From: Antedon mediterranea
Taxonomy: Eukaryota > Echinodermata > Crinoidea > Comatulida > Antedonidae
Reading direction: 5' to 3'
Assembly (NCBI RefSeq): GCF_964355755.1
Contig: NC_092670.1
Coordinates: 9,051,201-9,115,200, forward strand
DNA length: 64,000 nt
In this document: piece by piece, positions 44,884 through 50,773 of the stretch
Layout of the letters: every line of letters starts with the position of its first letter
Numbering within the stretch: the stretch's first letter is position 1
The notes under the pieces: model-generated
Told to the model about the DNA's origin: nothing
Database searches by the model: none
Seen by the model: only the letters and a program-made list of their open reading frames with translations
Position numbers and translations under genes: made by a program

Positions 44884-47800
44884 CTGGAAATAGAATTATT
44901 TTTATTACAATTACTTTTTTTTTCTCGCGAGGTAAATGCATTGAACTTATAAGAACATATAGTCAGGCAGCATTTGTCACTATATTAACTTTACTTCATA
45001 TATTTAGCCAAGTTTGATTTTTCACTTTTAAGTGATCAAGGACATCACAAGAAACAACTTCCAACTTGTTGTCCAAATTCTAAACGCGTTTTTCATTCGC
45101 TGGGGGCGGTTTTTCAAAATGGCCGCCTATGCTATCAAGTACTTATATCTCGGCAACCACTAATCGTAGAGACTTGGTTTTAGTCTTAAAATGTTCGTAA
45201 GGTACATAATTCTATTCACTATAATTGAACATTTTGCCCTAAAATGACCGGAAATACTATTTCTGACCATTTGACCTTTGACCTGATCTTATCATATCTC
45301 AATAACTATTGGTCAGAAAGAGTTGATATTTATCCCAAATTGTTCAGAAAATACATGTTTCTATTTGCTTTAATGCAAAGGTTTGTTTCAAGATGGCTGG
45401 AAAAACCATATCTGACCTTTGACCATAACCTGTGTGATATCCACAACATGTTGGTTACTTATAGATAAAATTTTTCGACAGATTGCTCAGAACATCCATA
45501 TTTGTAACACATTATTGATTTTTCAATTATTGATGCTTTAAAACATTCACTTAAGCTTGGAAATTAAAGTTTTAAAATAAATAAAAGCCACTCATTATCT
45601 CCATACATAATCCTAGCCTGTGATTGGCTGAAAGTTCAAGCAGATTAGATTTCATTAGTTTAAATGGTAAGTGTTTTTTAAACCGATTTAAACAGTGTTT
45701 GCTGGGAAATCATACTTATTATTAGTACATATACATTTACTTGTATAATAATGTACCTATGCTGATATAAATGTTGTACAGAGAGGCCTTAGTTAAATAG
45801 TTATAAACTATAGTTCCAGCCTAGGCCTTGTCGCTAACACCTAGCAAACAATGCTAGCCTGGTGAGATCCCTGTGGAACTCAGTGACAAGCCAACTCAGT
45901 GCCTGGCATGGTAACCTCCGATGATGTTAGTCAAACGATTGAAAAGCGAGACCAATTAGGAAAAGAAGCATTGGATAAATTTGTGACTTCACGAATGGTT
46001 GAAAAAACCGTAACATTTTGGGACTCTCAAAAGAAAAACAACTTCTCTTATTTCAAGCATGTAGGAGCAGTGGTGAAAACCAAAATTAAAGGTCAACTAG
46101 TTTCAACTAAGCAAGAGAGAAAGCTGCTGTCTAGATTGTTAGTTGTGGTGAAGAGCAGGCCAGAGTTCGCTCTAAAGGATGTCATAGGCAACTATGAGTT
46201 CAATTGCACTCCACCATCAAATTTCCATCCAGATGGAAAAATGATAATGCTTTCTGGAAAATCCAAGGTATTTGCAGTCAATAACAGAACTCCCTCTACC
46301 AGATAATGTCAGCAGGCCTGATAAAAAGCAGCATTATTGATGGAATGTGTGTCGTCAATATGGTAAAGAAGGTGTCTGATAAGTTCAATGCTTCTGACTT
46401 TGCATCTGAATTTGTTAACCTGATTGTTGGTATGAGCAAACCATATGATGAAGTTCGTCTTTTATTTGATCAATATCTATCAGGATCTTTAAAAGAATCT
46501 ACACGAGATAAGAGAACACAGAAAACAACTACCATTCACTACCATGTCAATGACAACACTGAGATTAAGAACATTAAGACATTTTTATCGCACAAAGAGA
46601 CCAAAGCTGAACTTACAAAATATCTGTCAGAGAAGATACGTAATCACTTCAAGAACAACACGAAGAAGGTCATAGTAACACATCACACGTCCATGGCAAA
46701 CTGCAATCTCTCAGAAGTTACCATGATGCCAGAGATGACACACGGACAACACACATTGGAAGAAGGGGACCAACTGGTCTTATTGTATGCCTTTGATTGT
46801 ATGAACAAAGACCCAAGTGCCAATGTTGACATATTTTCTGTAGATACTGATGTCTTTATCTTTTTAACAGGAAGCTATCCTCTACTTCCTCCAATGACCA
46901 CATTTTGTAGGAAAAGAGGGGAAAAAATACCTATATGGGAATGCTATTACCGACTTTGAAAACAAATATCAGCAGCACTGATTGGATGGTACGCATTTAA
47001 AGGTGCAGATAACACAGGTACATTTGCTGGAAAAGGAGTGTCCGCCCATTTCCCAGCACTTATGAAATGTGACGATGAAATACTAGATGCATTTGCTGTA
47101 TATGGACTGACCTCTGAAATACCAAATTGGATTTTCAGGCAAATGGAAAGATATGTTTGCATATTATACAGTACTTCTAAGATCAAGGCAGATTATGTCA
47201 CAGACTTGAGATGGATGTTATTTGCACAGAAAGGCAAGGAAGGACAACAGTTACCTCCAACCATGGGAACTCTTAGATCACAGATATTATAACAGTTCCA
47301 TTGGTGATTTGAAATATTGATTTTGGAACAAGGAATATCATCAACAAAACCACAAGTACAGGTACAAGTTATAAACAATACTAGACAAATCTATAGTCTC
47401 TCAGTCTCAGTTGTGGATATTACATGCATTAGGGCATGGATTAAAGAATAGAAGGATATGCATCGACGTGAGATCAAGGGTTCCTTGACTCTCGCCGACA
47501 GACTGCGGACCGCCCACAATGTTACAGTTTAATTAACCGCATGGTAACAACGAAACGGTCGCGTGCCTAATATATTGTTTACTGCACATGTGCAACGACA
47601 TTTAACCTTGTTGGCTACGCTTCTTTCGCGCGTTCTTTGGTTGCATGATGTTTGTAGATGGTCAACTATTGACTATGTTGGTTTCTGCCGCGATTGATCT
47701 ACGCTAATGATTTTTTTATGATGATTAAAGTAGCATTTTATGACCTGTAGTAGCCCTACATCTGAGACAATAACTATTAGTTGTCTCATTTGTTGTAAAA

Positions 47801-50773
47801 TTACAAGAATGCTAGCCTAGCTAGGCCTTGTACTAACTAGGCTAAACTGGGCTAGTAAACCCTATGATTTGCCGACATTGATACTGCCTAGGTAGGCCTA
47901 GGCTAATCTTAAATACTCACCGTTGTCTTACTTCTTGTGTGAATAATAATAGGTAGGCCTACTTCGTTTGTTCGTGATCAAGTTTGCCCTGCGTGTACTT
48001 TTCAAAACGACCGCTAGGTAACGAATCGCAACTATACATAGCCAGCCAATCCCGGATCAGGGATCGCTGTTTTCATTCAATTAGGCCCGGTGATGTGGAT
48101 GACATAACCACTAGCCAATCACCAGGCACTACAGTTTAAATATAATCACATCGATAATTAAGGAGATTTATGAAGAAACCACTGCTTAGCCATATATTAA
48201 AAAACACGATTGGTGTATGTCTGAACACCGGCCACGCTAACAACATACATGGTCAAATGCATAATTTAATATTCTATAGATTAACGCAATTTTTAATGAC
48301 AGAAGATGGCAGGCAAATAATGATAATTCAAATATAAAAATTGCATATTTTATTAATATTACCAACTACTTAAAATTACCAGTCGTAAGAAAGTGAACTT
48401 TTCGTAGTCCGATTGTGATGAAACTAAAACAGAATTATTCAGCAATATATGTTTGTTATCAATTAATCATCGACGCAGACATGTCAATAGAACATTCAGA
48501 CTGCGCATACGATTTCTACATGGTTAGGTTTTGGTCTCAAAAAATGTAACAGTTGATTCGCAGCGTTTTACAGAGGGCCGCGGTTAGAGACACGGAGTTC
48601 AATGAACGTGTTTGTTTGATTGGCAGCAGTGCTTTAGTATAGGCAAGCGCGTTGTAAAATCGTTTGATGTCACCGTCGATGCATATCCTTCTATTCTTTA
48701 ATCCATGATTAGGGCAAGAGGTCAGATATGGCATTTCTGTTTGCTTTAAAACAAAACATTTAATTACAGTAAATATAAAAAGGCATACTGCGAACAATTT
48801 GAAACAAATTTCAAGTCTGTGTGACCATTTGTTACCGAGATATGATGATAGAAGGTCAAAGGTCAAATGGTCAGAAATGGCATTTTCCGTCATTTCTGGT
48901 CAAAATATTCCATTAGAGTAAATAGAAATATGTACATTACAAACATTTTAAGATTAAAACCAAGTCTCTACGATTAGTGGTTGCCGAGATATAAGTACTT
49001 GATAGCATAAGCGGCCATTTTGAAAAAGCGCCCCCAGCGAATGAAAAACGCGTTTAGAATTTGGACAACAAGTTGGAAGTTGTTCGTTGTGATGTCCTTG
49101 ATCACTTAAAAGTGAAAAATCAAACTTGGCTAAATATATGAAGTAAAATACAAATGCTGCCTGACTAATATATTAATCTATTTCATTGATGTATAAACAG
49201 CATAATTATACTGTACTGTACCTGTAATTAAAATAAAATATCTTGTATTGTACAGTACAGGTTTTTATCTAATGCTTAACTATTAACAGTGAGTGCAGTG
49301 ACCACCGCAGTATGCATACCTTCTAGAAATTGGTAGCTCTCTTCCTCTGCCACCGCTTCAGCAAGGTCATTGTAGTTCACAACCTCCTCGGCCTTTCTCC
49401 TCATATAAGACTCTTTTGCAATGTTTTCAACAAAGAGTTCCTAAAAACAATTATTATAATTATTAAATTAATTAAATATATGTTTAAAATAAGGTATTAT
49501 TAGGCCCTAGCTAGGCCTATATCAATATTTTACACATATAATAATTCAATTAAAAACAAAAAACAAAGCAAAATGGGCGCTAGTTCCGTTTCGCACCTGT
49601 TTTTATTTCGACTTCCTTTTGACTCCAAATTGTTAAGCAGCTTATTGTGAATACTACACCTTAAAATTGGGCCTTATAAGTACTTTTATGAAGAAGAATC
49701 ACATAAAAAGTAACAAATAAAACCTTAAATTGATGATTTTACAGACATGTTTCTCGCGCATACCGTTCGCGAATTTAGCATACTCGAAGTTCAATATTTT
49801 CGTTTCTATGGAGCGCCAAAAGAGCAACAACAATAGATGGTTAAAATCTCAGTGGAATGCGTCTTCTTTTAATGCATTTATTATTGAAATACACGTTTAA
49901 TTTTAATATATTTTGTCAATAAAATGCTGTAACATTTTACTGCTAATAATTTGCTGTTTTCAAATAGCAACCACCCCTAGCTAGGCCTAAGAGTAAGACT
50001 AAGACTAACAGGAATATTATTTAGATCAGATATACCCCTACAGTACATGTAATATGATGATGAATTTGTCGATTTTCATTCCTAAAAGTTCCTGCAAAAA
50101 CCATGTACAGTATCAACAGTAATATTTTTGTTGCATTGACATTGACAAAATATGATAAAATTGAACGTAATTTTCACCAATAAATGCATTAAATATACGC
50201 AATTTACTGAGTTTTTAGCCCTCTATTATGATTGCTCTGTTGGCGCTCCATAAAAACAACAACATTGAACATGGAGTATGCGAAATTCACGAACCGATGT
50301 TCGAGAAAGACGTCTGTAAATTCATCAATTTAAAGGATTTGTTTTTTACTTTTTGTGTGATCTCCTTCGTAAAAGTATTTTTGAGGCCTCATTCTAAGGT
50401 GTGGTACTCACGATAAAGTTACTTAACCAATTTTGAGTCGAAATAAACGACAGGTGCGAAACGGAACTAGCGCCGCAAAATGAATGAATAAATAAATAAA
50501 TGAAGAGTATGTGTGTGCTCTCTAGGCTAGACCTAGATCGGGCCGAATCGTCCCGGATTCTACAAAACAGTAGCAGGGCCACAGGTCTATCCGAATACTG
50601 AATGCTCGAATAAACGAAAGGCTAGCCTAGCTAGTAGAGCCTAGCTAGCTATCTTGGACTTCATAACTTACTGTTGCTTTGGTTATAAGGAAAAGGGATT
50701 CTCCACTAACTGAAGTGATTTCGGGGGAACTTTTCATTATCATTCTTATTCTAGCTACTGGTAATGCAGTCAT
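44804..50773 (-). CDS. CHRAC1: CHRAC1 (CHRAC-15) histone-fold protein, three exons
   Basis: Exons are 50773-50672 (ATG in MTALPVARIRMIMKSSPE), 49440-49320 and 44883-44804 (stop TAG). Phases fit exactly (0, then 1), giving 100 residues with no stop. The protein shows the H2A/NF-YC-type histone fold of CHRAC1: the L-P-V/L-x-RIR-x-IMKSSPE start, FLITKAT, YNDLAEAV, SYQFLED and the conserved VLPKKVL near the end, then an acidic/basic tail. In animals CHRAC1 pairs with POLE3 and joins ACF1 and SNF2H in the CHRAC nucleosome-sliding complex in the nucleus. Every exon is too short to stand out as an open frame. Intron 1 holds an 899 bp transposon and intron 2 holds a 4.2 kb element. The gene is head to head with WDR75, with start codons 1.24 kb apart. 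Confidence 0.93.
44960..45416 (+). repeat. Left long terminal inverted repeat
   Basis: Tip TAGTCAGGCAGC. It contains AAAATGGCCGCC and the DR1-type sequence TGACCTTTGACCT at 45272-45284, with another (TGACCTTTGACCA) at the inner edge, 45413-45425. Confidence 0.88.
45899..47292 (+). pseudogene. Decayed PIN-like (FEN/XPG-like) gene of the long-TIR element
   Basis: Three frames read as one protein. The first (45899-46303) has KRDQLGKEALDKF, VEKTVTFWDSQKKNN and RLLVVVKSRPEFALKDVIG. A short LPLPDNVS bridge in another frame follows. The second frame (46306-46959) has LIKSSIIDGMCVVNMV, TKYLSEKIRNHF and the acidic motif FSVDTDVFIFL. After a third shift (47010-47290) comes ALIGWYAF, then GADNTGTFAGKG. 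This layout (IIDGM, an acidic E/D-x-D stretch, DTDV, G-C/A-D-x-T-x-x-F-x-GKG) is that of a multi-copy family I recall from invertebrate genomes. The DTDV and glycine-rich motifs resemble PIN-fold nucleases. At least three frameshifts (near 46280, 46312 and 46935) kill this copy. Confidence 0.7.
48724..49167 (-). repeat. Right long terminal inverted repeat
   Basis: Inverse of the left arm; ends GCTGCCTGACTA at 49167. Contains a perfect DR1 sequence AGGTCAAAGGTCA at 48853-48865. The inner 120 bases are clearly more diverged than the outer 300. Confidence 0.88.
49320..49440 (-). CDS. CHRAC1: CHRAC1 exon 2
   Basis: Between TTTTTAG and GAAG|GTATGC. Encodes ELFVENIAKESYMRRK, then VVNYNDLAEAVAEEESYQFL, the core of the fold. 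Ends in phase 1. Confidence 0.93.
49576..50474. mobile_element. 899 bp non-autonomous TIR element with an 8 bp target duplication
   Basis: Ends GGCGCTAGTTCCGTTTCGCA and its inverse, with inverted arms extending over roughly 260 bases each. GCAAAATG flanks both sides exactly (49568-49575 and 50475-50482). The interior is non-coding. It sits in CHRAC1 intron 1. The 8 bp duplication fits hAT, P or Merlin; the GG tip is unlike typical hAT ends (CA), so Merlin-type is possible. A shorter relative is at 22211-22725. Confidence 0.92.
50672..50773 (-). CDS. CHRAC1: CHRAC1 exon 1
   Basis: 34 codons from the ATG to GCAACA|GTAAGT. It contains ARIRMIMKSSPEITSVSGES, the first helix and loop of the histone fold. 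Ends in phase 0. Confidence 0.92.

Follow-up and report, generated by a model that had tools for sequence, protein, structure and literature searches.

Background

P and hAT elements generate target-site duplications (TSDs) of 8 bp and are not known to carry a fused FEN-like nuclease. The TSDs of Harbinger and EnSpm/CACTA elements are 2-3 bp long; the Harbinger target is TWA, and EnSpm/CACTA tips read 5'-CACTA. Few transposon superfamilies have been studied as little as Academ. The nuclease of its AcademX lineage is called XPG. The AcademX lineage, credited to Kojima 2020, makes duplications of 3-4 bp and AcademH makes duplications of 9-10 bp, lengths that have been linked to the encoded nuclease and helicase (PMC10045372). 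Among animals, long DNA transposons with an Academ annotation are common (their mean length in bivalves is 5.6 kb; PMC10294476).

The stretch of Antedon mediterranea DNA analyzed here (64,000 nucleotides; "the window") contains a mobile unit at 44960-49167, confirmed as real. The initial annotation presented it as a candidate undescribed transposon, a designation that is not supported, its anatomy being in agreement with that of the AcademX lineage (PMC10045372). The preferred reading, to which a probability of roughly 0.8 is assigned, is that this unit is a member of a young family of non-autonomous cut-and-paste DNA transposons of AcademX type, moved in trans.

The unit and its host intron

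The unit lies in an intron of a CHRAC1-like (CHRAC-16-like histone-fold) gene, two exons of which lie on the minus strand (49440-49320 and 44883-44804) with GT..AG borders. The intron measures 4436 bp, or 225 bp if the unit is removed, and the CHRAC1 intron setting of the initial annotation is correct. (Similarity of the exons to fly CHRAC-16 is weak, E = 0.028, and a Pfam search with them returned nothing significant.)

The opposed long arms with a common tip that had been noted at the outset are real terminal inverted repeats (TIRs) of 459 and 449 bp, 85% identical over 459 aligned columns (E = 3e-150), with TAGTCAGGCAGC at both tips and ATA on either flank (Table 1). Identity is 96% over the outer 240 aligned bases, excluding a 10-bp indel, and 76% over the inner 209. 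The proposed bounds of a 4.2-kb unit stand, but 1273 bp of what they enclose is a separate, later transposon, and approximately 330 bp are absent by comparison with sister copies: positions 2323/2326 of the window copy join 2319/2650 of sister L021, and the deletion takes out the C-terminal, CXC-coding end of the ORF. The nested transposon has perfect 34-nt TIRs beginning CATGGATTAAAG (also given as CATGGATTAAAGAATAGAAGG), and an apparent 7-bp TSD (ATTAGGG), and lacks any long ORF; it is present in the genome in at least 40 copies, 97-100% identical, and its site is uninterrupted in sister copies of the outer element.

Elsewhere in the window, 11865-12103 matches the arms' subterminal repeats at approximately 69% identity and contains no recognizable ORF; it is probably what is left of a related element.

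Table 1. Features of the mobile unit (window positions)
Feature	Position	Strand	Remarks
Left target-site duplication, ATA	44957..44959	.	flank comparison, 17 copies
Left terminal inverted repeat, tip TAGTCAGGCAGC, with degenerate ~149-bp direct repeats	44960..45418	+	
ORF remnant, predicted FEN/XPG-like (PIN-fold) nuclease	45887..47286	+	frameshifted, stop, C-terminal Cys-rich end missing
Junction left by ~330-bp deletion (by comparison with sister L021)	47280..47288	.	
Younger DNA transposon nested in the unit (non-autonomous; 1273 bp)	47435..48707	.	
Right terminal inverted repeat	48719..49167	-	
Right target-site duplication, ATA	49168..49170	.	flank comparison, 17 copies

A young family with 3-bp target-site duplications

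A search of the 354-Mb assembly with the tip pattern, allowing up to one mismatch, yields 58 matches; the reversed-pattern control yields none, which places the family far beyond chance. Nineteen insertions could be extracted with both ends, and every full copy has the 459/449-bp arms. One common core can be aligned across all copies. The typical copy is ~3.3 kb long and diverges from the majority sequence by only ~1-2%, implying that the family is young. An exact 3-bp TSD of varied sequence flanks 18 of the 19 two-ended insertions. (What this means operationally is that the 3-bp flanks are identical in 16 of 17 simple copies and in 13 of 272 between-copy controls; the remaining two cases are a dimer on C2, with ATA on its outer flanks, and an 8.9-kb copy on C5, with TAA.) The TSDs seen are ATA, TCA, CAA, GTA, TAG, AGA, CTA, TTA, TAC, TAA, GTT and TTT, so that the 3-bp targets are AT-leaning and otherwise free. 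When the joined flanks of 18 insertions were used as query, empty-site paralogues were recovered for five (L029-L032 and L034), 85-99% identical across the join and ungapped or nearly so. The family has the features of a class II element, that is, fixed-tip TIRs in many dispersed copies, a TSD of fixed length and empty sites, and the claim of a multi-copy mobile element is borne out.

Comparison of the arms of all copies gives ~98% identity for left with left and for right with right, and ~85% for left with right. The near-identity of the outer arms and divergence of the inner arms had been taken to suggest gene conversion of the tips or a patchwork history. That explanation fails: the same ~15% left-right difference is present in every copy, so that the asymmetry is a fixed trait of the family, not a patchwork of the window copy.

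Several insertions have peculiarities of their own. L026 (G000:C4:7517995-7521304) has no clean 3-bp duplication and both of its tips read AAGTCAGG in place of TAGTCAGG. The C2 dimer (L027 and L028; G000:C2:22835719-22846172) consists of two 5.2-kb copies, head to tail and 99.98% identical, whose tips abut (CCTGAC-TA-GTCAGG) with no duplication between them; the arrangement is reminiscent of a circle-junction dimer, but a duplication made in assembly could also account for it. The 8.9-kb copy (L056 and L040; G000:C5:4981765-4990696) contains a nested retroelement, apparently of the non-LTR type to judge by its long ORFs. At G000:C4:248904-249033, two opposed tips are just 130 bp apart; this is probably a miniature (MITE-like) derivative.

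The nuclease remnant

The PIN/FEN-like ORF of the initial annotation was correctly identified. The domain homologous to the window ORF gives a profile match to EXO1 (E = 0.0012) and a weak match to E. coli Xni; its predicted structure (pTM 0.79) finds T5 FEN, XRN1, Rad2 and XPG (Foldseek E 4e-5 to 4e-3). The window remnant is on this basis predicted to have the FEN/XPG/XRN-type nuclease (PIN) fold, and each of the seven acidic active-site positions known from the FEN fold can be recognized in the family. (Pfam returned nothing significant for the window ORF pieces.) The likeness to FEN1, EXO1, XPG, Rad2 and XRN is in the predicted PIN/FEN fold and the conserved acidic positions. On the other hand, sequence identity is only 10-14%, and the domain is here part of a transposon protein, broken in the window copy.

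Such an ORF lies between matching arms in every full copy examined. The window ORF is homologous to residues ~805-1275 of P0002, an intact DDE+PIN protein of 1360 residues, and its last two reading frames are in fact a single frame, split by TGA at about 46957 where four sister copies have GGA. The same TGA is common to 12 of 16 readable family copies, and a single 1-base frameshift to nearly all. Within the family, substitutions amount to 1.56, 1.35 and 1.21% at the first, second and third codon position, denoting absence of constraint; between the family and an older relative (L042), the corresponding values are 15, 13 and 39%, denoting strong earlier constraint. The contrast implies that the nuclease ORF was under selection in the ancestors of the family and neutral during its recent spread. 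Matches to the fused protein (by tblastn) are confined to its nuclease half and tail, and no copy of the family has any match to the transposase core.

Intact relatives fuse a predicted transposase core to the nuclease

Homologues of the ORF in the genome comprise close family copies and distant relatives, 25-45% identical, some of them in very long frames. The intact relatives are single proteins of 1250-1550 residues (L043/L044, 1247; L045, 1360; L048, 1524; L050, 1547), and L043/L044, L045, L048, L050, L051, L052 and L053 can be aligned from end to end. Their common order is an N-terminal Cys/His part (where present), a core, a nuclease domain homologous to the window ORF and, usually, a Cys-rich tail that is tesmin/TSO1-like in several. 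Pfam labels the core DUF6589 in five of seven relatives. A structural model of this core (pTM 0.77) finds its closest folds in the P element (VIA-align Z 11.3 over 365 residues), the IS256 type (ISCth4, 8.8) and Hermes (8.7), with HIV integrase (5.7) and Transib (5.6) further off; D174, D339 and E583 (L043 numbering) are conserved at the positions expected of a DDE triad. Foldseek alone returned no significant fold for the core model, so that the DDE call rests on VIA-align and the conserved residues. With this qualification, L043, L045, L048 and L050-L053 are predicted to carry a DDE/RNase-H transposase core ahead of the nuclease. The initial annotation had supposed that a protein always carried between such arms either belongs to an element whose mobility enzyme is not a classical DDE transposase or is a passenger of one; the non-DDE reading is not supported. 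The structure prediction on intact relatives that it had also proposed points instead to a DDE/RNase-H core that precedes, within one protein, a FEN/XPG/XRN-type nuclease like that of the window family. (Viral contigs scanned with P0003 yielded no relatives.)

Intact relatives do occur without the arms of the window family, in other elements that have TAG tips of their own and duplications of 3 bp; TAG tip and TSD length are common to the DDE+PIN relatives and the window family. L043 lies in a 7.7-kb element with tips TAGGCCATCGGG, a CCA duplication and an intact, fused ORF; another element, 3.8 kb long and with tips TAGACTGTGGGC, is present in two copies, L046 (duplication TTA) and L047 (TTT). 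In L041, inverted repeats enclose an N-terminal part, the core and the nuclease in that order, and the right part of L041 is 34% identical to the window ORF.

Proposed history and its alternatives

The ancestral autonomous element would have encoded one large protein, with an N-terminal Cys/His-rich part, the DDE/RNase-H core, the FEN/XPG-like PIN nuclease and the Cys-rich tail. An internal deletion would then have removed the N-terminal and transposase parts, sparing the long TIRs with their subterminal repeats and the nuclease half, and the nuclease remnant would have decayed while copies of the family were still multiplying. The missing transposase half and this decay during multiplication suggest mobilization in trans: a transposase recognizing the arms and making 3-bp staggered cuts would move the copies, and the nuclease may work together with it in processing ends or flaps. 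That a DDE+nuclease protein mobilizes these deletion derivatives is the simplest mechanism and the most likely one; the helper would be such a protein, encoded at another place in the genome. The assembly searched yielded no autonomous element that has these tips; a same-tip helper could be hidden by stretches of N or absent from this assembly. The longer copies (5.2, 5.8 and 8.9 kb) are rejected as autonomous elements, their extra DNA having no transposase homology (that of the 8.9-kb copy is the nested non-LTR retroelement), and the divergent copy L057 on C7 is a truncated non-autonomous copy and not the helper.

Since full copies with these arms carry the PIN part only, and with all of its acidic active-site positions recognizable, the nuclease might by itself be the mobility enzyme of a new transposon class that needs no DDE transposase. 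That is very improbable, the least probable of the readings considered here. The frameshift and stop shared by most copies, together with the absence of codon constraint within the family, imply that the family spread with no functional product encoded in cis, and the shared disabling mutations largely refute the proposal; moreover, a DDE core stands upstream of the PIN domain in the intact relatives. Only slightly better placed, and still quite unlikely, is a single capture of a PIN gene fragment, as passenger, by an unrelated non-autonomous transposon to which the arms would belong. The decay of the fragment, and the fact that the arms are never found here with an intact transposase, would suit such a capture. 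Against it, the degenerate subterminal repeats seen in the arms are found again beside DDE+PIN or PIN genes in L042, L045/L046 and L049; L042 has a similar tip, TAGTCGGGCAGC, and a PIN copy of its own that is 72% identical and was formerly under selection; and TSD length and TAG tip are those of DDE+PIN elements.

A different question is whether the DDE+PIN elements are Academ at all. They may constitute a superfamily of their own, as yet unnamed, uniting a DUF6589-like DDE core, a FEN/XPG nuclease working in transposition and CXC, with the window family as its non-autonomous member. Pfam has no label for the core other than DUF6589, and the literature searched makes no mention of DUF6589, or of a DUF6589 or PIN domain tied to DDE transposons. 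Yet a DDE transposase, a nuclease and 3-bp TSDs are reported features of AcademX (PMC10045372), and long animal transposons annotated as Academ are common (PMC10294476). Separate status is judged improbable on this evidence, though less so than either of the two preceding proposals.

Placement and significance

The reading of the window family as being of AcademX type fits its 3- or 4-bp class of TSD, its nuclease (predicted FEN/XPG/XRN fold, EXO1 match; a remnant only in the window copy) and the DDE transposase of autonomous relatives (predicted fold with conserved D, D and E), and superfamily membership is judged from these three features. Occurrence in animals is a further likeness. The difference from AcademX is that the window family is non-autonomous, with the nuclease half only. 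AcademH belongs to the same superfamily according to the literature, but has 9-10 bp TSDs and a helicase (PMC10045372), whereas the TSDs here are of 3 bp and no helicase family match was found in the relatives. With the P element and Hermes, the core of the relatives shares a predicted RNase-H fold in which a large helical insertion precedes the final catalytic Glu; the likeness to P and hAT is one of fold only. Harbinger and EnSpm/CACTA resemble the window family in having 3-bp TSDs. However, the TSDs of the window family are not restricted to TWA, its tips are TAGTCAGGCAGC and not CACTA, and the DDE+PIN relatives code for another type of transposase, plus the nuclease.

The window family is best regarded as a new family of a known, little-studied kind, and not as a new type of mobile DNA. 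Because this genome holds both young copies with readable TSDs and several intact DDE+nuclease genes, the role of a FEN-type nuclease in transposition is testable here. That role might, for example, be to set the 3-bp stagger, as against the 9-10 bp of the helicase lineage.
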